Assembly (NCBI GenBank): GCA_019240635.1
Contig: JAFAYA010000005.1
Coordinates: 1-64,000, forward strand
Direction: 5' to 3'
Source: Acidisphaera sp.
Lineage (GTDB): Bacteria > Pseudomonadota > Alphaproteobacteria > Acetobacterales > Acetobacteraceae
Length of the DNA stretch: 64,000 nt
The position numbers and the translations under genes are program-made. How positions within the stretch are numbered: the stretch's first letter is position 1; the number at the start of each line of letters is the position of its first letter. This document shows, one piece after another, positions 3,969-30,904 of this stretch. The notes under the pieces are model-generated. The model was given only the letters and a program-made list of their open reading frames with translations. It was not told the DNA's origin and did not search any database.

Positions 3969-4838
3969 TCAATCGTCGTCGCGCGCGGACTTGCGGGCGA
4001 TGTCCGGCACGTCCGCGGCATCGGCGTCGCTGTCGAAACGCAGGCGCTCGGGGGCGGACAGCACGATGAAGCGGCGGCCCTTGGCGCGGCCGATCAGCGT
4101 CAGCCCGGCCTGACGCGCCAGCTCCACACCCCAGGCGGTGAAGCCGGAGCGGCTGACCAGGATCGGTATGCGCATCTGCACGCATTTGATCACCATCTCC
4201 GAGGTCAGCCGGCCGGTCGTGTAGAACAATTTCTGGTCGGGCAACACGCCGTTGAGGTGCATCCAGCCGGCGATCTTGTCGATCGCGTTGTGCCGGCCGA
4301 CATCCTCCATGTACACCAATGGGCGGTCCTGTTCGCACAGCACGCAGCCGTGGATCGCACCGGCGGTCAGATACAGGCTCGGCCGCGTGTTGATTTTTTT
4401 CGCGAGCGCGTAGAGCCACGACGCCCGGATCTCAGCCTCGGGGTCCAGCACCACGTCCGAAAACCGCTCGAGCATGTCGCCGAACGCGGTGCCCTGGGCG
4501 CAGCCGGAGGTCAGCGTCTTCTTCTTCAGCTTGGTCTCGAAGTCCGTCTGCCGTTCGGTGCGCACCACCACCACGTCGATCTCCGGATCGACGTCGATGC
4601 GGGTGATCGCGTCCTCGGCGCGCAGCATGTTCTGGTTCAGCAGGTAGCCGACCGCGAGGCAGTCCGGCCGGTCGCCGATCGTCATCATCGTGACGATCTC
4701 TTGCCCATTGAGGAACAGGGTCAGCGGGCGCTCGACGGGGACGCGGGTGCGGATCGGCGCCCCGGTGTGGTCGATGCCCTCCACGTCGCGGGTCAGCGCG
4801 GGGTCGTCGGGGTCGGGGGCGATCAGAAATTCAGCCAT
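3969..4838 (-). CDS. fdhD: Formate dehydrogenase accessory sulfurtransferase FdhD
   Basis: ...LTSGCAQGTAFGDM... and CVLCEQDRPLVYMEDVGRHNAIDKIAGW; FdhD family hallmarks. Confidence 0.93.
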   Translation of the reverse strand: MAEFLIAPDPDDPALTRDVEGIDHTGAPIRTRVPVERPLTLFLNGQEIVTMMTIGDRPDCLAVGYLLNQNMLRAEDAITRIDVDPEIDVVVVRTERQTDFETKLKKKTLTSGCAQGTAFGDMLERFSDVVLDPEAEIRASWLYALAKKINTRPSLYLTAGAIHGCVLCEQDRPLVYMEDVGRHNAIDKIAGWMHLNGVLPDQKLFYTTGRLTSEMVIKCVQMRIPILVSRSGFTAWGVELARQAGLTLIGRAKGRRFIVLSAPERLRFDSDADAADVPDIARKSARDDD

Positions 4839-6084
4839 AGAGCAGGCGCAGCGGGATGCAGGCGAGCGGATCGCCGGGGGCGATCGACGTGACGCCCTCC
4901 GGCAGTTCGGCGAGCGCGTCGCTTCCGGTCAGCGAGGTGATGATGCCCGCACCCTCCTTTGGAAAATTCTTCGCCCGCAATGTGCCGTCGGCGTCATCCA
5001 GCAGCACGCGCAGAAATTCGCGGCGGTCGCGCTTCTTGCGCCAGGCGAAAGCGCTGGGGACGGGAAAACGCGGCAGCGCCACCGGGCGCGCGCCGGCCAG
5101 CGCGTCGAGCACCGGGCGGGCGATCGTGACAAAAGTCACCAGCGCGGCGACGGGATTGCCGGGCAGGCCGAGCAGCGGCGTATCGCCAACGCTGCCGAGG
5201 GCGACCGGGCGGCCCGGCTTGATGCCGACGCGCCAGAAGGCGAGCGTGCCGACCGCCTCGATGGCTGCCCGCACGTGGTCCTCCTCTCCCGAGGAAACGC
5301 CGCCGCTGGTCAGCACGAGATCATGCGCCGGTGCGGCTTTCGCGAGTGCCGCGCGCACCACGGCCGCGTCGTCGGCCAGGATCTTTCCGTCGGTCACGTC
5401 GACATCCAGGCGGGCGAGCAGTGCTGCGAGCATCGCCCGGTTGGCGTCGTAGATGCGGCCGGGATGCAGGGTTTCGCCGGGCTCCTGCACCTCGTCGCCG
5501 GTTGAGAACAGCGCAACGCGCAGCCGGCGGCGCACGGCGATCTCTTGATGGCCGAGGGCGGCGAGGAGCGCGAGGTCGGCGGCGGTCAGGCGCCGGCCGT
5601 GCGGCAGGGCGCGCTCCCCGGCGGCGATGTCTTCGCCGGCCAGGCGGCGGTTGGCGCCGCGGCGAAGGCCGGGGGGCACCGTGACCTCGGTCTCGGTCGC
5701 GACGCAGTCCTCCTGCATCATCACCGTGTCGGCGCCGGGCGGCATGACCGCGCCGGTGAAGACGCGGGCGGCCGTGCCGCGCGGGACCGGCTCCGCGAGC
5801 GGGTGGCCGGCGGCGGCGCGGCCGGCGAGCTTCAGGACCGTCGGGCGGTCCGGCGCGAGGTCGTCGTGGTGGAGTGCGTAGCCGTCGACGGCGGAGTTGG
5901 CTTGCGGCGGAATGCAGAGCCCGGCGGTGATCTCGCCGGCCAGCACGCGTCCGAGGGCTGCCGCGAGGGGCACCCGCTCGGGCGCGGCGCGGCAAGAAAA
6001 GCACTCGGCGATGCGCGCCTGCGCTTCGGCCAACGGCAGCAGGCGACCGGCGAAGGCGAAGCAGTCGTCGCTGAGCTGCGCCAA
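4831..6084 (-). CDS. moeA: Molybdopterin molybdenumtransferase MoeA
   Basis: AVDGYALHHDD, RVFTGAVMPPGADTVMMQED, GDEVQEPGETLHPGRIYDANRAML, TSGGVSSGEEDHV, GLPGNPVAALVTF motifs; overlaps fdhD start. Confidence 0.95.
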   Translation of the reverse strand: MAQLSDDCFAFAGRLLPLAEAQARIAECFSCRAAPERVPLAAALGRVLAGEITAGLCIPPQANSAVDGYALHHDDLAPDRPTVLKLAGRAAAGHPLAEPVPRGTAARVFTGAVMPPGADTVMMQEDCVATETEVTVPPGLRRGANRRLAGEDIAAGERALPHGRRLTAADLALLAALGHQEIAVRRRLRVALFSTGDEVQEPGETLHPGRIYDANRAMLAALLARLDVDVTDGKILADDAAVVRAALAKAAPAHDLVLTSGGVSSGEEDHVRAAIEAVGTLAFWRVGIKPGRPVALGSVGDTPLLGLPGNPVAALVTFVTIARPVLDALAGARPVALPRFPVPSAFAWRKKRDRREFLRVLLDDADGTLRAKNFPKEGAGIITSLTGSDALAELPEGVTSIAPGDPLACIPLRLLYG

Positions 6085-6093
6085 TCCCCGGAC

Positions 6094-6414
6094 CTACGTA
6101 TGCTGCTTGAAGTCGGCGACCAGTTCGGCCAGCACGCCACGCGCCTTTGCAACGCGGTCCCAGCGCACGCTGGGCAGCGGGTATTCGCTGCCGACGACGA
6201 CGCTGATGACGCCGTTCAGGCGGTCCAGGCAGTGTTGCAGCGCGTCGGTGTCGCCGGCTCGCCGACGGCGGATCAGCGCGTCGCGCAGCACGCAGAGCGA
6301 TTCCACGGCGACGGCAAAATCGTGCATGCCCTTTTCCGGCTGATGGGCCAAGGCGTCGTCGAGCTTTTGCAGCGCGACGTCGCCGGGGTGGAGGTCGATT
6401 CCGGTTTCGCTCAT
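6094..6414 (-). CDS. Hypothetical protein in formate dehydrogenase operon (~106 aa)
   Basis: ORF MSETGIDLHPGDVALQKLDDALAHQPEKGMHDFAVAVESLCVLRD...; tightly packed between moeA and the NrfD gene, overlapping the latter by 4 nt. Confidence 0.75.
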   Translation of the reverse strand: MSETGIDLHPGDVALQKLDDALAHQPEKGMHDFAVAVESLCVLRDALIRRRRAGDTDALQHCLDRLNGVISVVVGSEYPLPSVRWDRVAKARGVLAELVADFKQHT

Positions 6415-7463
6415 GGGCTGCGTCCGGGCTGGGTCATGGCGAGATAGGATTCCGGCCGGCGGGCGGATTCATTGCCGGCGTACATGATGGTCAGGCGCAG
6501 GATGGCGCTGCCGGCGATGGCGGCGAGGGCGCCGGCCCAGGCGAGCCGTTCCGAGCGGCGGCCGGACAGCCGATTGAGGACGTAAAGCCCCAGCGGTGCG
6601 GCGGTGCCGAGCAGTTCCGCGCCGCCGCCGTACGCGGCGCGATAGCGCGGCATGTGCAGCGCGTCGTCCACGCCCTTTTCGCGAAATGTCGTGTTGGCGT
6701 TGCGCGCAATCAGCGCTTCGGTGAGGGTGGCGAGCGCGAAAAAATCTTCGAGCCGCTCGGCCGCCGCGTATCGGCGGCGGCGACGCGCGCCGAGCGAGAG
6801 CGCTGCCGAGGCGGCGGCCATGGCGGCGGCGCCGAAGCGGGCGGCGAGCAGGCGCGGCGCGGCGGCCCAGAGCGGCGTGCTCGTCGCGGCCAGCAGAGCG
6901 GCGGTGTAGACGCTCATGCCGGCGCCGGCGATGGCCGCGGGGATTTGCATCAGGCGTGCGGCCTTGCGGAAAAACCGCGTGCGAGGTCGCCAGCCGGCGT
7001 CGTCGGCCGCGTGCGCCGCGGCGGTGACTGTGGCGAAGCCGCCGAACGCCGTCAGGATCCAGCTGCCGATCGACATCGGCGAGGTCGCGCGAAAGATGCG
7101 CAGCATGTTGAACCAGCGGCTCGGCGTGTGCAGGCCGGCGATGAGCAGCGGTGGGCCGGCGATGGTGCCGGCCAGCGCGAGGTAGCGGCCCTGGCGGACC
7201 GTGTCCGCGTATTCGGGATCGCCGTCGAGATCGGCGAGGGTGGCGATGATTTCCGCCGCACCGGCCAGGCCGCCGACAAAAATGTAGGTGGCGATCTTCC
7301 AGTCGAAGGGGCTCGGCTTGACGGTGTTGCGGCCATAGTATGTGGGGCCGTCGTAGACGCGGCGGAACTGCGCGCTATCGCCGGTGCGGCCGTACGGGCT
7401 GCGCGGCTTTTCGCTGCGGTCGAGCGGGCCGGAAACGGCATCGATCTTGCCGGGATAGCTCAT
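6411..7463 (-). CDS. nrfD: NrfD/PsrC-type polysulfide reductase membrane subunit of formate dehydrogenase
   Basis: MSYPGKIDAVSGPLDRSEKPRSPYGRTGDSAQFRRVYDGPTYYGRNTVKPSPFDWKIATYIFVGGLAGAAEIIATLADL..., multiple TM helices. Confidence 0.9.
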   Translation of the reverse strand: MSYPGKIDAVSGPLDRSEKPRSPYGRTGDSAQFRRVYDGPTYYGRNTVKPSPFDWKIATYIFVGGLAGAAEIIATLADLDGDPEYADTVRQGRYLALAGTIAGPPLLIAGLHTPSRWFNMLRIFRATSPMSIGSWILTAFGGFATVTAAAHAADDAGWRPRTRFFRKAARLMQIPAAIAGAGMSVYTAALLAATSTPLWAAAPRLLAARFGAAAMAAASAALSLGARRRRRYAAAERLEDFFALATLTEALIARNANTTFREKGVDDALHMPRYRAAYGGGAELLGTAAPLGLYVLNRLSGRRSERLAWAGALAAIAGSAILRLTIMYAGNESARRPESYLAMTQPGRSP

Positions 7464-7510: not shown

Positions 7511-8410
7511 TCACGCCCGCCCTCGCAGCAGAACCATCGCCGCCGCCGCGAGCCCTGCAACCGTCGCGAGCCCGGAGAGCAGGCTCGGCGCCGTGCGCCT
7601 GGAGGCGCGCGTCGGTGCCGGCGGCAGGTTGTACACCTCCGGGCGCTGCGTCAGCAGGAAAAACGCATTGAGGTGCCCGAGATCGCCCGTCGCACCCGGC
7701 GTTCCCGGCGCGCCGTAGAGATAGGCCGAACTCACGCCGCGCGCGTGCAGTTCCTCGACCCGGCGGTGAGCGCTTTCCTGCAGGTCGCCGATTTCGCCGA
7801 ACTGGATGGAGTCCGTAGGGCACGCCTTCGCGCAGGCCGGCTCCAGCCCGCCCTTCAGCCGGTCGTAGCAAAGCGTGCATTTATGCGCCTTGCCGTCCAC
7901 CGCCGAGAGATCGACCACGCCGAACGGACAGGCCGGCACGCAGTAGCCGCAGCCGTTGCAGATGTCCTGCTGCACGACGACGGTGTCAAACTCCGTGCGG
8001 AATAGCGCGCCGGTGGGGCAGGCCTCCAGGCACGGCGCGTTGTGGCAGTGCTTGCACACGTCGCTCATCATCAGCCAGTTGGACTGATAGGGCGCCATCT
8101 CCGTCGCCCGCGCGTCGCCGCTGCCGATCATCTCGATGAACGACACGTGCCGCCATGTACTGGCGGAGAGCGCGCCGGTGTTGTCGTAGCTGTCGCCGGT
8201 CAGCGCCATGTTGTCGGCTGGCAGCGCGTTCCACTGCTTGCAGGCGCTCTCGCATGCCTTGCAGCCGATGCAGCGCGTGGTGTCGGTGAAGAAGCCGTAG
8301 GACCGACCGGGAACGATGCGCGTGCCGGCGGTGATCTCGGACTCGTCGGGGATCGGGCCCAAAAACTCGGATTGCGGGAAGTCGCGCGCTCGGGGATGGA
8401 TCGCCATCAC
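7511..8410 (-). CDS. Formate dehydrogenase iron-sulfur (beta) subunit with C-terminal TM helix
   Basis: Four 4Fe-4S motifs: CIGCKACESACK, CKHCHNAPCLEACP, CNGCGYCVPACP, CTLCYDRLKGGLEPACAKACP; C-terminal hydrophobic helix SLLSGLATVAGLAAAAMVLL. Confidence 0.94.
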   Translation of the reverse strand: MMAIHPRARDFPQSEFLGPIPDESEITAGTRIVPGRSYGFFTDTTRCIGCKACESACKQWNALPADNMALTGDSYDNTGALSASTWRHVSFIEMIGSGDARATEMAPYQSNWLMMSDVCKHCHNAPCLEACPTGALFRTEFDTVVVQQDICNGCGYCVPACPFGVVDLSAVDGKAHKCTLCYDRLKGGLEPACAKACPTDSIQFGEIGDLQESAHRRVEELHARGVSSAYLYGAPGTPGATGDLGHLNAFFLLTQRPEVYNLPPAPTRASRRTAPSLLSGLATVAGLAAAAMVLLRGRA

Positions 8411-11400
8411 TCGTCCCCCGGCTGAACGCGGCCCTTGCGCAATGCGCAGGTAAACGCCTTGTTTTCGTGCATGGAGCTGTTGGGGTCGGCGACAACCGCG
8501 GTCAGCGCGTTCGCGACATCACCGACGGCAAAACCCTGCCAGCCGAAATGGTAGGGCATGCCGATCTGATAGACGCGCTTGCCGTCGATCTCGAACGGGC
8601 GCAGGCGGTCGGTGACCAGCGCCTTGCTTTCCACTTCGCCGCGCAACGTGGAGACGACGATCCAATCGGTGTTGCCGATGTCGAGTTCGGCCGCAAGCTC
8701 GGTCGGGATTTCGCAGAACTGCTCGGGCTGCAACTCCGCCAGAATCGGCACGCCGCGCGTAGAGCCGCCGCCGGACTGGTGCTCGGTGACGCGGTACGTG
8801 GTCATCACGTGCGGGAAGCGGGGATCGCCGATCTCGTGATACCGATTATCCGGCCGCAACCATTTTTTGACGACCGGATTGTCCTGCTGCGCATAGAGCG
8901 GGTTGTGCACGGGACTATCGACCGGCTCGTAGTGGGTCGGCAGCGGTCCGTCCTTCAGGCCGGACGGCGCGAACACCGCGGCCTTGCCGTCGGCGATCAT
9001 GATGAACGGCGAGCGGCCGTCCAGCGCCTCCATGCCCTTCGGCTTCTTCGTGTAGTCCGGCTGGTAGTCCGGCGGCGTGGTTTCGGAAAAATCCGGCACG
9101 TCGCGGCCGATCCATTTCCGCGCGCCCGCATCCCACCAGACCAGCTTCTTGCGCTCCGACCACGGCTTGCCGTCCGGGTCGGCGGAGGCGCGGTTGCACA
9201 GGGTGCGGCGATTGGAGGGCCATGCGAAAGCCCAACCGAGATGCGTGCCGGGTCCGTCCGGCGCGTCCGGCACGCGCGAGCGCGAGGCGTTGTGGTCCTC
9301 GCTCGGATAGACGCCGCTATACGTCCAGACGCCGCAGGCGGTCGAGCCGTCGTCCTTCAGCGCCTTGTAGTCCGCCACCTGCTTGCGGTCGGCCACCGTC
9401 CAGCCGTTCATCTCCTTCAGGATGTCGTCGGCCGAGGGATCGTCGTATTCGCCCTCCAGGTGATAATCGAGCGTAATGGCCTGGATCGGTGCGTCGCGCG
9501 CCTGCGTGCTCTCGGCGTGCATCGCCTTCAGCCGACGCGCGAGGTGATAGACGAACCAGCTTTCGGATCGGCTGTCGCCCGGCGCCTCCACCACCTTGTC
9601 GTGCCACTGCACCAGGCGGTGCGTGTTGGTGTAGGTGCCCGGCTTTTCGCCGGCGAGCGAGGAGGGCAGCAGGAAAATCTCCGTGCCGATATCCTCGCTC
9701 CGCAGCTCGCCTTTCTGCACCAGCCTGCCGTTGCGCCAGAACGAGGCGGTGTCGCTCTCCATGAAGTCGCGCACGACCAGCCATTCGAGCTTGGCGAGGG
9801 CGCGCTGCACCATGTCGGCGTTGCTGCCGCCGATCACCGGGTTCTGGCCGAGCACGTACATGCCGCGGATCAGTCCGTCGCGCATGGCGACCGTCATCGG
9901 CAGCATGGAATGGTCGCCGACGATTTTCGGCACCCACTCGTAGCCGTACTGGTTGGCTTCGGTGGCCGCCTCGCCGTACCAGGCTTTTAGCAGGCTCACC
10001 ATGTATTTCGGCAGGTTGTGCCACCAGCCGGTGTCGGTCGTCTCGGCCTTCAGGTAGTCGGCGAGCGTCGCGTGCGGCATGTGCGCGTTCGGCTGCGGCA
10101 GGTAGCTCGGCAGCATGTCGTAGAGCGTGGGCACGTCGGTCGAGCCCTGGATCGTCGAATGGCCGCGGAGTGAGATGATGCCGCCGCCGGGGCGGCCGAC
10201 ATTGCCGAGCAGGCTCTGGATGATCGCGGCGGCGCGGATCATCTGCACGCCCGTGCTGTGGTGCGTCCAGCCGACCGCGTAGCAGACGACGCCGGTGCGC
10301 TCGCGGCCGGAATTCTTTGCCCAGGCTTCGCACACTTTTACGAACACGTCGCGCGGACAGCCGGTGACCCGCTCCACCATCTCCGGCGTGTAGCGGGCGT
10401 AGTGCCGCTTCATGATCTGATAGACGCAGTTCGGGTGCTGCAAGGTCAGGTCGCTCGGCGGGGGCGCCTCCGACAGGCGTTTGGCGTGCTCGCGTCGCTC
10501 GGGCGTGGTGCTCGGCAGGTGCTCGGAGAGCGAGGAGGGAATTTCCTCGCCTTCATACTGCCAGGTATCGACCTTGTAGCTGCGGGTCTTGTCGTTCCAT
10601 CCGGAGAACAGGCCGTCGGCCTCGGCGTCCTTGAAGCCTGCCTCGATGATGGTGGCGATATTCGTATAGTTCAGCGCGTAGTCGCGGAACCAGAGATCAT
10701 TTTCCAAGATGTAGCGGATCACGCCGCCGAGAAAGGCGATGTCGCTGCCGGCGCGCACTGGGGCGTAGATGTCGGCCATCGCCGAAGTGCGGGTGAAACG
10801 CGGATCGGCATGCACGATGGTCGCGCCGTGATCCTTCGCCTGCAGCACGTGGCGGAAGGCGATCGGGTGGTTCTCCGCCATGTTGGACCCCATGATCAGC
10901 ACAAAATCGCTGTTCGCGAGATCCCATTGCGGCAGGGTCGCCGCGCCGCGGCCGTATGTGGCACCCAGACTGGGGACCGAAGAAGAGTGTCAGATGCGCG
11001 CCTGGTTCTCTATCCAGACCATGCCCAGCGCGCCGCCGAACACCTTCTTGATGATGTAGTTCTCCTCGTTGTCCAGCGTGGCGCCGCCGAGCGAGGCGAT
11101 GCCGAGCGTGTGGTTGACCGTGGTGCCGTCCGGCAGCTTTTCGACAAACGTCTCGTCGCGGGTGCGCTTCGTGAGATAGGCGATGCGGTCCATCGCCCAG
11201 TCGAGGCTGCGCTCCTCCCAGTGATCGGAATGGGGCGCGCGGTATTTGACCTTGGTCTCGCGCAGCGGGCTGTTCAGCCATCCGGCCGTGGCGGACCCTT
11301 TCGGGCAGAGCGTGCCGGCGTTGACCGGGCTGCGCGGATCGCCTTCGACATGGATCACCTGGTTGCCGCGCGCGTACAGCAGCTGCGAGCAGCCGACGGC

Positions 11401-11583
11401 GCAGTATGGACAGATGACCGTGCCGACCTTGTCGGCCTGTTCGAGGCGCGGCCGCAGCGCCTCGGACTGCGTGCTGCGGGCCGCGTCCGACGCAGAACTC
11501 TGTCCGGCAAGCTGGCGCGGCAGCGACCAGTCGCGCAAGAAACCGCGCGCCCGCTTGCCGATCCCTGGCCTGATTTCCTTCAT
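8407..11583 (-). CDS. fdhA: Formate dehydrogenase catalytic (alpha) subunit, selenoprotein (in-frame TGA at 10990-10992 = Sec)
   Basis: ORFs 10990..11730(-) and 8407..10902(-) share a frame and are separated by one TGA. Joined: MKEIRPGIGKRARGF...GTVICPYCAVGCSQLLY...MVWIENQARI-U-HSSSVPSLGATYGRGAATLPQWDLANSDFVLIMGSNMAENHP..., matching the FdnG-type ARVUHS...GRGAMTN..IMGGN.AE.HP pattern. Confidence 0.93.
10948..10992 (-). promoter_or_regulatory. Bacterial SECIS element downstream of the Sec UGA
   Basis: mRNA: UGA CACUCUUCUUCGGUCCCCAGUCUGGGUGCCACAUACGGCCGC. Hairpin CCC-AGUCU-GGG (plus strand cccagactggg, 10964-10974), apical loop AGUCU 19-23 nt after the UGA. Confidence 0.85.
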
Positions 11584-11587
11584 CGCA

Positions 11588-11896
11588 TCACTCCCCCAGC
11601 GGCCGCGCGGATTCGAAGACATGGTGCACCCGGGCCAGCAGCACGCCCTTCGGGTCGTCGCACTCGACCTCGACATGGCGCTGCGCGCGCATCGCTCGCT
11701 GCAAATCAGCCCACCCCGCCGCGCAGCCATGCGCGAGTTGGCAGAGCAGGTGCACGCCGTCGTCGGCCAGCAGACCGAACCGGTCTTCCTGGATGACGGT
11801 GATCACTCCGCCGACGCGCCGGCGGCCTTGCCGCGCCACGCGCTCGTGATGCGTACGCTGTCGCAAGGTCGGCCTCCTCAAATCCCGGATGCGCAC
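11588..11896 (-). CDS. Small hypothetical protein upstream of formate dehydrogenase alpha subunit (~102 aa)
   Basis: GTG start at 11894-11896: (M)RIRDLRRPTLRQRTHHERVARQGRRRVGGVITVIQEDRFGLLADDGVHLLCQLAHGCAAGWADLQRAMRAQRHVEVECDDPKGVLLARVHHVFESARPLGE; 4 nt from fdhA start. Confidence 0.65.
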   Translation of the reverse strand: MRIRDLRRPTLRQRTHHERVARQGRRRVGGVITVIQEDRFGLLADDGVHLLCQLAHGCAAGWADLQRAMRAQRHVEVECDDPKGVLLARVHHVFESARPLGE

Positions 11897-11928
11897 CGGA
11901 ACGCCGGGGTGTGACAGCCGGTTGCGCG

Positions 11929-12117
11929 CTACGGATCGACGGTGGCGGCGCAGCTGTCGGTCGGCACGGCCGCCGGGTGGCCGACGAGCGGCACCGCCTT
12001 CAGCCCGGCGGAGGCGACCCGGCAGGGTGCCGCGAGCAGGCCGCATCCTGCCAGCGCGCCCGCCGCCGTGAGAAGCAGGAGCCAGAGACGGAGGTAACGG
12101 AACAGTGGTGGCGGCAT
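11929..12117 (-). CDS. Small lipoprotein (possibly DUF6726-like)
   Basis: MPPPLFRYLRLWLLLLTAAGALAGCGLLAAPCRVASAGLKAVPLVGHPAAVPTDSCAATVDP; signal peptide with LAGC lipobox. Family name from memory. Confidence 0.65.
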   Translation of the reverse strand: MPPPLFRYLRLWLLLLTAAGALAGCGLLAAPCRVASAGLKAVPLVGHPAAVPTDSCAATVDP

Positions 12118-19853: not shown

Positions 19854-19931
19854 GGCCAGGGGCTCCGCCCCTGGACCCCGCTGGGGCAATGCCCCAGGCC
19901 CCTTTTACTTCAGTGGGCAGAGCCCCTGGCC
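19854..19931. repeat. Nested inverted repeats / bidirectional terminator-like element
   Basis: GGCCAGGGGCT (19854-19864) with perfect inverted copy AGCCCCTGGCC (19921-19931); inner hairpins CCAGGGGC-tcc-GCCCCTGG and CTGGGGC-aat-GCCCCAG, the latter followed by TTTT; between convergent ORFs. Confidence 0.65.
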
Positions 19932-22045
19932 TTCACTTCCAGCCGCGGCGGCCCGGCCAGTACGGTGCCGACCGCCGCCGCGGTGATCCCCACCGCGCCC
20001 AGCGCGATCACGCAGGCTTCCGCCCTTTCCGCCGTGATCCCGGCCAGCAGCCCGCCCGAGGTCTGCGGGTCCGCCAGCAGCGCCGCCGCCACGTCCGGCA
20101 CGTCGGACGGCAGCAGGCGCCGGTTCTCGGGCGCCAAGGTGCTCGCTACGCCCCGCGCCGCAAGCTCCGCCGTGCCAGGCAGCAGCGGCACGGCCGAGAG
20201 CCACAGCCGCGCCGCCACCTGCGAGGCATCGAGCATCTCCAGCAGGTGCCCGCCGAGCCCGAACCCCGTGACATCCGTGCAGGCGCGTGCGCCGTGCGCG
20301 CGCAGCAGCCGGGCGGCGTCCGCATTGGTGCGGCGCATGGAGGCGATCGCCGCCTCCAGCCAGCGCGCCTTGACCAGGCCTTGCATGTGGCCGGCCAGCA
20401 CGATCCCGGTGCCGATCGGCTTGGTCAGGATCAGCACGTTGCCCGGACGGAGCCCCGCCTTGCGCCACTCCGTGCCCGGCGCGACGAGGCCGGTGACGGC
20501 AAAGCCCAGCGCCGCCTCCGCCGCCTCGGCGGAGTGCCCGCCCGCCAGCGTGCAGCCATCCGCCGCCAGCACACCGAGCGCCCCCTGCATCATCGCCGCC
20601 AGTTCCCGGCGCATCTTTTCGCGCGGCATCGCTGGCACCGCGGCGATCGCCAGCGCCGTCCAGGGCCGCGCTCCCATGGCGTGGAGGTCGGAGAGCGCGT
20701 GCGCCGCGGCGATCTCGCCGAACACGAAGGGGTCGTCGAGGAAGCCGCGGAAATGGTCGACACTCTGCACCACCGCCACGCCCGGTGGCGGCACGGCGAT
20801 CGCCGCGTCGTCGCGCGCCGCGAGCCCGACGATCTCCGGCCGCGGCGCCACCGCGAGCCCGCCGAGCACGCCGGCCAGCACGTCCGCGCCCACCTTGGCG
20901 CCGCACCCGCCGCAGCGCATCGGTGGCGCGCCGGGCGCCGGCCGCATCGGCCGCAGCCGGGCGTAGCGCTCCATCCAGCGCGCGTCGATCGCGCGCTTCC
21001 ACCGCATCACCGCGCGTCCCGAAAAACTCCAGCCGCCGCGCCAGGCCAATCCGCGCCCGTCGCCGAGGCCGAGGATGGCGAGTGCCCGGGCCTGCGGATG
21101 CCAGGGCCGCAGGCTCTGCCCGGCGGCGGCGCGGCGCAGATTGGCGGCGAGCGGCGCCCCCGCGCGCACCGCCCACACCCCGGCCTTCGGCCGCGCCGCG
21201 CCCCCGACCGCCGCGCAATCGCCGGCGGCGAAGACGAAGCGGTGGCTGACGCTGCGCAGCGTCGCGTCCACCCGCACGCAGCCCTGCGCGTCGCAGGCCA
21301 GGCCGGCGCGCGCCAGGAACCCCGGCGCCCGCACCCCCGTCGCCCACAGCGCCGCTTGCACCGCGATGGCGCGTCCATCCGCCAGGCGGAGCGTGCCGTC
21401 GGCGCAGTCCGCCGCCGCCCCGCGCACCACGATCACGCCCGCCGCCGCCAACGCGTCTCGTGCGACCGCACGGGCGCGCGCCGGCGCCTCCGGCAGTGGT
21501 GCCGGCTGCGGCAACACCAGCACGATCCGCGCGCGTCTGCCGAAGCGGCGCGCCAGCGCCAGCGCCAGTTCCGTCCCGCCCGCCCCGCCACCGATCACGG
21601 CCACCGGGTCCCCGCCCTGCAATCCCGCCTCGAGCGCCCGCAGCCGGGCCAGGAAGCGGCCGATCGGCTTGACCGGCATCCCCCCGCCCGGTGTCGCCGG
21701 CTCGCCGCCAACATCGAGCGAGAGCAGGTCGAACCCGACCTCCGGCCGCCCGGCCATCTGCACCGTGCGCACCGCGAGGTCGAGCGACACCGCCTCCGCC
21801 AGCAACAGCCGCGCGCCCGAGGCGGCGGCGAGCGGCGCGAGATCGACATGCGCCGCGTCAAAATCGTGCTCGCCGCGGATCAGCCCGGGCAACATGCCGG
21901 AATACGGCGTGTGCGCCTCCCGGGCGATCAGCGTCGTGCGCACCCCAGGCATCGGTCGCATCGCCAGCCGGCGCAGCACTTCCACATGCGCGTGCCCGGC
22001 GCCGAGCAGGACGAGGTCGGTCTCGATCGGCGGGCCCGGCTGCAT
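19910..22045 (-). CDS. selD: Bifunctional FAD-dependent pyridine nucleotide oxidoreductase / selenide, water dikinase (SelD)
   Basis: N-terminal ETDLVLLGAGHAHVEVLRRLAMRPMPGVRTTLIAREAHTPYSGMLPGLI...AVIGGGAGGTELALALARRF; C-terminal SelD MRCGGCGAKVGADVLAGVLG...DDAAIAVPPPGVAVVQSVDHFRGFLDDPFVFGEIAAAHALSDLHAMGARP...TDVTGFGLGGHLLEML...DPQTSGGLL. Confidence 0.93.
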   Translation of the reverse strand: MQPGPPIETDLVLLGAGHAHVEVLRRLAMRPMPGVRTTLIAREAHTPYSGMLPGLIRGEHDFDAAHVDLAPLAAASGARLLLAEAVSLDLAVRTVQMAGRPEVGFDLLSLDVGGEPATPGGGMPVKPIGRFLARLRALEAGLQGGDPVAVIGGGAGGTELALALARRFGRRARIVLVLPQPAPLPEAPARARAVARDALAAAGVIVVRGAAADCADGTLRLADGRAIAVQAALWATGVRAPGFLARAGLACDAQGCVRVDATLRSVSHRFVFAAGDCAAVGGAARPKAGVWAVRAGAPLAANLRRAAAGQSLRPWHPQARALAILGLGDGRGLAWRGGWSFSGRAVMRWKRAIDARWMERYARLRPMRPAPGAPPMRCGGCGAKVGADVLAGVLGGLAVAPRPEIVGLAARDDAAIAVPPPGVAVVQSVDHFRGFLDDPFVFGEIAAAHALSDLHAMGARPWTALAIAAVPAMPREKMRRELAAMMQGALGVLAADGCTLAGGHSAEAAEAALGFAVTGLVAPGTEWRKAGLRPGNVLILTKPIGTGIVLAGHMQGLVKARWLEAAIASMRRTNADAARLLRAHGARACTDVTGFGLGGHLLEMLDASQVAARLWLSAVPLLPGTAELAARGVASTLAPENRRLLPSDVPDVAAALLADPQTSGGLLAGITAERAEACVIALGAVGITAAAVGTVLAGPPRLEVKARGSAH

Positions 22046-22112
22046 GCCGGGGCACCCTAGCCCGCCCGTTGTTCCCCTTGAAGGAAGCCGGGCCGAGCGG
22101 CGACACTGGCGC

Positions 22113-22826
22113 ATGACCTGGTCCATCCTGGTGCGCGACCCGGCGAGCGGTGCGCTCGGCGCCGCGGTCGCCACCCGGTTCTTCGCGGTCGGCGCGCTCT
22201 GCATCCATGTCGAGGGCGGCGTGGCGGCACTTGCCACCCAGGCGCTGGTCAATCCGATGTTCGCCGTCCAGGGCATGCCGATGCTGCGCGCCGGCAAGCC
22301 GCCCGAGCAGACCGTCGCCACCCTGCTCGCCGGCGATGCCGGCCGCGCCCACCGCCAGCTTCACGTTCTCGACGCAAGCGGCCGCATCGCCCAGCACACC
22401 GGGGCGGCCTGCATCGCCTGGTGCGGCATGCTGCGCGGCCAGGACGTGTCGGTCGCCGGCAACATGCTGGCCGGTGAGGCGGTGCTCGCCCGCACCGTCG
22501 AGGCCTACGCGGCCGCCGCCGGCAGCCTGGCCGAGCGCCTGCTCGCGGCGATGGAGGCTGGCGAGGCGGCCGGCGGCGACAAGCGCGGCCGGCAGTCCGC
22601 GGCGCTGAAGATCGCCAGCCGCGACCCCTATCCGGATCTCGACATCCGCGTGGACGACCACGCCGCCCCGCTCGCCGAACTGCGCCGGCTGCACGACGTC
22701 GCGCAGCAGCGCTTTGCGGTGTTCCGCCGCTTCATGCCGGGCGCGGACAGCCCCGCCGGCGTGTTCGACCGCGCGGTGATCGAGCGCGCCGTCGCCGAGC
22801 ACGGCAAACCTCCGGGAGGATCGTGA
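22113..22826 (+). CDS. DUF1028 domain (Ntn-hydrolase-like) protein
   Basis: MTWSILVRDPASGALGAAVATRFFAVGALCIHVEGGVAALATQALVNPMFAVQGMPMLRAGKPPEQTVATLLAGDAGRAHRQLHVLDASGRIAQHTGAACIAW. Confidence 0.85.
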   Translation: MTWSILVRDPASGALGAAVATRFFAVGALCIHVEGGVAALATQALVNPMFAVQGMPMLRAGKPPEQTVATLLAGDAGRAHRQLHVLDASGRIAQHTGAACIAWCGMLRGQDVSVAGNMLAGEAVLARTVEAYAAAAGSLAERLLAAMEAGEAAGGDKRGRQSAALKIASRDPYPDLDIRVDDHAAPLAELRRLHDVAQQRFAVFRRFMPGADSPAGVFDRAVIERAVAEHGKPPGGS

Positions 22827-29842: not shown

Positions 29843-30904
29843 ATGCGCGCATGGGCCGTCGTCGAGAACGGGGCACCGCTGCAGGAGATCGAACTGCCGA
29901 CCCCCGAACCCACCGGCACGCAGGTTTTGCTGGAGACGACGCATTGCGGCGTCTGCCACTCCGATCTGCATATCTGGGAGGGATTCTACGACATCGGCGG
30001 CGGCAGAAAAATGTCGCTGAAGGATCGCGGCGTCGTGCTGCCGCTCGCGATGGGCCACGAGATCGTCGGGCGCGTGAAAAAGCTGGGGCCGGAGGCGCAC
30101 GGTGTCGCCGTCGGCGACCTGCGCATCGTCTATCCCTGGGTCGGCTGCGGACAGTGCGAGCCGTGCCGGTCCGACGAGGACAACATGTGCCTCCAGCCGC
30201 GCAGCCTCGGCGTCTACCAGAACGGCGGCTACGGCACGCACGTGCTGGCGCCGCACCCCCGCCACCTCGTCGATCCCGGCAACGTCGATCCGGCGGTCGC
30301 CGCCACCTATGCCTGCTCGGGCATCACGGTCTATTCGGCGATCCGCAAGGTGATGCCGCTGCCGCCGGACGAGGCGGTGGTGGTGGTGGGCGCCGGCGGG
30401 CTCGGGATGAACGCGATCGCCGTGCTCAAGGCGATGCAGCACCGCAACATCATCGTCGTCGATGTCAGCGCCGAAAAGCGCGACGCGGCGACGCGCGCCG
30501 GCGCCGCGAAGACCATCGACGGCAACGGCGAGGACGTCGCGAAACGCATCATGCAGGCCTGCGGCGGGCCGGTGCTGGCGGTGATCGACCTGGTGAACGG
30601 CACCGCCACCGCGCGCTTCGCCTTCGATGCGCTGCGCAAGGGCGGGCGCCTCGTGCAGGTCGGGCTGTTCGGCGGCGAACTCAGCCTGCCGCTGCCGCTG
30701 ATGGCGATTCGCGCGCTCACCGTCCAGGGCAGCTACGTCGGCACGCTGAAGGATCTGCGCGCGCTGGTCACGCTGGCGCAGCAGGGCGCCGTGCAGCCGC
30801 TTCCGGTCGCGACCGTGCCGCAGCGCGAGGCGAATGACGCGCTGATGCGCCTGCGCGACGGGAAGGTGACGGGGCGTTTGGTGCTGCGGTCGGAGGCCGC
30901 CTGA
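29843..30904 (+). CDS. Zinc-dependent alcohol dehydrogenase
   Basis: TTHCGVCHSDLHIWEGFYDIGGGRK...LPLAMGHEIVGRV...YPWVGCGQCEPCRSDEDNMCLQPRSLGVYQNGGYGTHVL. Confidence 0.93.
   Translation: MRAWAVVENGAPLQEIELPTPEPTGTQVLLETTHCGVCHSDLHIWEGFYDIGGGRKMSLKDRGVVLPLAMGHEIVGRVKKLGPEAHGVAVGDLRIVYPWVGCGQCEPCRSDEDNMCLQPRSLGVYQNGGYGTHVLAPHPRHLVDPGNVDPAVAATYACSGITVYSAIRKVMPLPPDEAVVVVGAGGLGMNAIAVLKAMQHRNIIVVDVSAEKRDAATRAGAAKTIDGNGEDVAKRIMQACGGPVLAVIDLVNGTATARFAFDALRKGGRLVQVGLFGGELSLPLPLMAIRALTVQGSYVGTLKDLRALVTLAQQGAVQPLPVATVPQREANDALMRLRDGKVTGRLVLRSEAA

Follow-up and report, generated by a model that had tools for sequence, protein, structure and literature searches.

A formate dehydrogenase alpha-subunit gene of an Acidisphaera-like Acetobacteraceae bacterium, divided by an in-frame UGA, probably encodes a selenoprotein of an NrfD-linked complex

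In the E. coli FdnGHI and Desulfovibrio FdhAB formate dehydrogenases (FDHs), the catalytic subunit is exported through the Tat pathway. Few bacterial selenoproteins are as widespread as the FDH alpha subunit, FdhA (PMC1794560, PMC9312934): PMC1794560 lists it in 67 of 75 organisms that use selenocysteine (Sec), and names fdhA as the sole selenoprotein gene adjoining selA-selB-selC in Alphaproteobacteria, Betaproteobacteria and Pseudomonadales. Fusions carrying SelD have also been described (PMC9312934). Here we analyze an fdhA locus of Acidisphaera sp. within a window of 64,000 nucleotides, the whole stretch of DNA under study (contig JAFAYA010000005.1), whose features are collected in Table 1. 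We estimate a probability of about 95% that this fdhA is an intact selenoprotein gene, with the UGA at 10992-10990 read as Sec198 and the full-length alpha subunit feeding a beta subunit and an NrfD-family membrane subunit.

Table 1. Features of the FDH locus, with coordinates in the window
Feature	Position	Strand	Basis or remark
fdhD, FDH sulfurtransferase/maturation factor	3969..4838	-	PF02634, 250 bits
moeA, molybdopterin molybdotransferase	4831..6084	-	NF007960, 406 bits, cut-off of 440 not reached; TIGR00177 domain above cut-off
Conserved 106-aa operon protein	6094..6414	-	Homologues likewise follow nrfD in many relatives
NrfD-family membrane subunit	6411..7463	-	PF03916, 76.3 bits
Fe-S beta subunit, single hydrophobic helix at the C-terminus	7511..8410	-	Fer4_11; hydrophobicity
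fdhA, FDH alpha subunit, predicted Sec198	8407..11583	-	1058 residues
SECIS element, Rfam SECIS_3 (RF01989)	10937..10995	-	38.3 bits, E 1.3e-5, gathering score of 63 not reached
SECIS apical hairpin	about 10960-10978	-	
In-frame UGA, predicted Sec198 codon	10990..10992	-	TGA 48 / TGC 8 among 56 homologues
Oxidoreductase-SelD fusion	19910..22321	-	TIGR03169 and TIGR00476 above cut-off

The mechanical list of open reading frames contains two minus-strand frames here, 10990..11730 and 8407..10902, separated by TGA 10992-10990. As the preliminary description of this DNA had stated, the two halves share one frame: from ATG 11583 to the stop at 8409-8407 this TGA is the sole interruption, and translation with TGA as U yields a single protein of 1058 residues with U198, in which the residues given earlier for either side of the TGA are correct. 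ATG 11583, the start chosen in that description as well, lines up with the N-termini of homologues and is for this reason most likely the true start, rather than the mechanical ORF start at 11730. Alignment to FDH families, which had been proposed as a check, placed the joined product above the cut-off in both profile searches: it scored 1428 bits with NF041513, whose cut-off is 1400, and 981 bits with TIGR01553, whose cut-off is 814. Solved selenocysteine formate dehydrogenases match FdhA across nearly the full length, and in the D. gigas enzyme 1h0h the position of the TGA corresponds to modified residue X. The mechanical list, with a second frame beginning at GTG 10902, would suit a true pseudogene, or two genes of which the downstream one starts from its own GTG. 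We give this reading almost no credence: a start at 10902 removes the Mo-ligand region, residues 187-240 across the TGA are conserved like the rest of the protein, and relatives at 39-87% identity retain one frame with a single TGA.

The metal-ligand column was covered by 56 homologous loci from Alphaproteobacteria, Betaproteobacteria, Chloroflexi bins, Desulfovibrio, Spirochaetes, Coriobacteriia and one Peptococcaceae bin, with the fdhA locus of a same-genus genome counted once. At this column 48 homologues have TGA, the same-genus fdhA included, 8 have TGC, and none has any other codon. The TGA therefore does lie where it had been placed, at the Sec/Cys position of the Mo ligand, and the proposed refutation, homologues with neither Cys nor Sec at this column, found no instance among the 56. 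Because the family scores are accompanied by TGA or TGC in 56/56 homologues, the joined frame is not attributable to chance.

A search with all Rfam families returned a SECIS_3 match that sits exactly at the fdhA TGA. With the U of the UGA numbered 1, the window's hairpin carries a C18/U30 mismatch, and its fold alone was no better than that of shuffled sequences; since single-hairpin folding was uninformative, we relied on covariation. In 41 distinct Sec sequences, 96.1% of the cells of the 5-bp upper stem were paired, compared to 81.2% after shuffling, and 22 two-sided changes were counted, compared to 5.6 in shuffles; when the partners were slid against each other as a control, the pairing collapsed. 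U17 and U24 do not vary among the 44 distinct Sec sequences, of which 42 also have G23. U17 and G23 have been described as SelB contacts, and U17, G23 and U24 as positions that may not vary (PMC8659212). The serine codon that supplies A22, G23 and U24 is AGT in all 31 Sec rows having Ser there, and AGT accounts for 5 of the 128 Ser codons of the FDH operon. U24 is lost in 6 of the 8 Cys homologues, which retain a mean of 3.9 of the 5 stem pairs compared to 4.8 in Sec sequences. In the proposed mechanism, SelB with its Sec-tRNA(Sec) would bind the hairpin that lies immediately 3' of UGA 10992-10990. Residue 198 of FdhA would thereby become selenocysteine, with its selenium as a ligand to Mo or W in the bis-pyranopterin cofactor.

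These data also bear on the idea that the TGA is a sequencing or assembly error for TGC and the enzyme a Cys variant. Homologues with TGC at the Sec/Cys column do exist, some in the same clade, but TGA occurs independently in the same-genus genome as well as at 46 other loci, where the SECIS bases follow it, and the Cys homologues have partly lost such bases. We reject both a sequencing error and a pseudogene because unrelated genomes share the TGA together with the SECIS, and consider the former, like the latter, extremely improbable. Six members of the clade (L074, L090, L091, L092, L093 and L112) have TGC with partly decayed SECIS bases, which suggests several Sec-to-Cys switches, or the reverse, within one clade.

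Part of the machinery for Sec insertion was found in the assembly. An intact selB open frame lies on contig C26 (TIGR00475, 372 bits; cut-off 242), and a SelD domain forms the C-terminal part of a pyridine-nucleotide oxidoreductase fusion located 8 kb from the FDH operon. The SelD domain scores 292-295 bits against TIGR00476 (cut-off 125) and keeps the catalytic Cys and Lys (GCGAK, compared to GCGCK and GCAAK in solved structures); the fusion scores 465.6 bits against the 'fusion_not_SelD' model TIGR04369, under its cut-off of 700. Translation of the fusion probably begins within the frame, at about residue 95. In Azospirillum, Skermanella, Caenispirillum and Lutibaculum, homologous oxidoreductase-SelD fusions adjoin the FDH operon; Azospirillum, like several others, has the fusion together with selA and selB within 6 kb of this operon.

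The preliminary description had called for selA, selB and selC to be found in the rest of the genome, and this search succeeded in part: selB was recovered, and neither selA nor selC (tRNA-Sec) was found in the assembled contigs, which are 72% complete. A weak match to selA on contig C70, at 29.9 bits across 55 positions and under the cut-off of 267.9, was discounted and is probably a paralogous PLP enzyme. Matches to RF01852 in the same genome were likewise rejected as tRNA-Sec: the best, at 49.6 bits just above the gathering score, is a tRNA-Ser, ARAGORN assigned the matches to tRNA-Ser, tRNA-Leu, tRNA-Gly and others, and the real tRNA-Sec of relatives score 67-83 bits. In the same-genus genome, selA and tRNA-Sec (73.2 bits) are adjacent on contig C92 and are followed by an OmpA-family gene, the far end of which makes up the last 145 bases of contig C94 in the window's assembly (30251-30395 of 30395). 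Since C94 ends inside the OmpA-family gene, selC-selA would be expected beyond the point at which this contig breaks off; both genes are thus most likely missing because of an assembly gap, and would then lie in the unassembled part.

The absence of selA and tRNA-Sec from the 72%-complete assembly could alternatively mean that the Sec machinery has been partly lost, making the UGA a true stop and fdhA a relic. We regard such a loss as very improbable, given that the assembly is incomplete to this extent and that C94 ends 145 bases into the OmpA-family gene, the one next after selA-selC in the same-genus genome. Furthermore, the open frames of selB and of the SelD domain are intact, the 831 codons past the UGA are still open and conserved, and the SECIS is kept. 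Reading of the UGA as Sec, as first put forward in the preliminary description, is supported at the level of sequence by the Sec/Cys column, the SECIS, and the presence of selB and selD.

The operon, with all genes on the minus strand, runs in the order fdhA, beta, NrfD, 106-aa protein, MoeA and FdhD. The beta-subunit ATG (8407) overlaps the fdhA stop by 1 base, and the beta subunit reaches 179 bits against TIGR01582, below the cut-off of 334.7. The order alpha-beta-NrfD recurs among relatives, often with the 106-aa protein, and in the same-genus genome moeA and fdhD likewise follow in the FDH operon; the fdhD of this operon is the only copy found in the assembly. The 106-aa protein had no family match in Pfam or NCBIfam and is possibly an accessory protein of the FDH complex. 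Upstream of fdhA, a small open frame at 11588-12046 on the minus strand is without a family match; homologous stretches (about 30-57% identity) lie upstream of fdhA in many relatives, and the frame possibly encodes a conserved small operon protein. The full-length alpha subunit is predicted to oxidize formate and to pass electrons through the Fe-S beta subunit to the NrfD-type membrane subunit and on to quinone, while MoeA and FdhD of the same operon would serve in cofactor insertion and sulfuration.

The membrane topology appears to depart from that of FdnGHI. The N-terminus of FdhA has no twin-arginine signal and no hydrophobic stretch. Clade members at 54-70% identity are also without a Tat signal and mostly have an N-terminal FLRDWSLPRQ-like motif, whereas relatives at 36-43% identity mostly have twin-arginine signals. 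Measured against FdnGHI, the alpha subunit lacks the Tat signal, and the protein encoded after beta is of the NrfD family PF03916, not the cytochrome b FdnI. The label 'FdnG-type' given earlier thus holds for the homologous catalytic subunit and its active site and fails for the topology. Because the clade as a whole is without a Tat signal, we infer that the enzyme probably faces the cytoplasm and delivers electrons to quinone via NrfD. A full-text literature search on NrfD-linked selenoprotein FDHs returned nothing specific. This Tat-less FDH also occurs, at 54-67% identity, in five Chloroflexi bins (L085, L089, L097, L113 and L116), suggesting either lateral transfer or misbinning.

The SECIS of the Tat-less clade has a feature of its own. 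In its 25 Sec members, U17 lies opposite a purine, as U.G in 19 and as U-A in 6, and a continuous outer helix can be closed in 23 of the 25; the bulged U17 of the E. coli type fits 16 of 23 more distant Sec relatives. A tentative and rather doubtful extension is that the NrfD-anchored clade, comprising Alphaproteobacteria, some Betaproteobacteria and the Chloroflexi bins, is a group of cytoplasm-facing, quinone-coupled selenoprotein FDHs in which U17 faces a purine instead of forming the E. coli-type bulge, so that SelB would recognize a slightly different hairpin geometry. Coding constraint may be the whole reason for this pairing, since position 31 also opens an Ala/Thr codon and the Cys members of the clade have G there too.

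The analysis restores one fdhA gene that naive ORF calling would divide in two, and adds a predicted selenoprotein to those of the Acetobacteraceae, in an Acidisphaera-like lineage. The broader implication is limited: in this clade, selenium-dependent oxidation of formate seems to be linked with an NrfD-type complex that has no Tat signal, and the orientation of this complex in the membrane is testable. Among known systems, the NF041513 FDHs of Azospirillum, Skermanella and Noviherbaspirillum are about 66-70% identical and have the same full-length catalytic subunit; like the enzyme described here, they mostly have TGA in the same place, no Tat signal, the beta-NrfD order and the 106-aa protein, and several have selA, selB and the SelD fusion nearby. 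Unlike in those loci, selB here is on another contig and moeA-fdhD follows directly, neither being an important difference. E. coli FdnGHI and Desulfovibrio FdhAB have a homologous catalytic subunit whose Sec occupies the same column; FdnI, however, is a cytochrome b, whereas the membrane subunit here is NrfD and the alpha subunit is without a Tat signal. With the selA-selB-selC-fdhA systems (PMC1794560) the locus shares fdhA as the predicted selenoprotein, and linkage to Sec genes is seen in its relatives as well, but this assembly has only the selD fusion near fdhA, and the selA-selC contig of the same-genus genome is without selB or fdhA. Taken together, fdhA here is a well-supported but ordinary case of UGA recoding, as in many known bacterial formate dehydrogenases.
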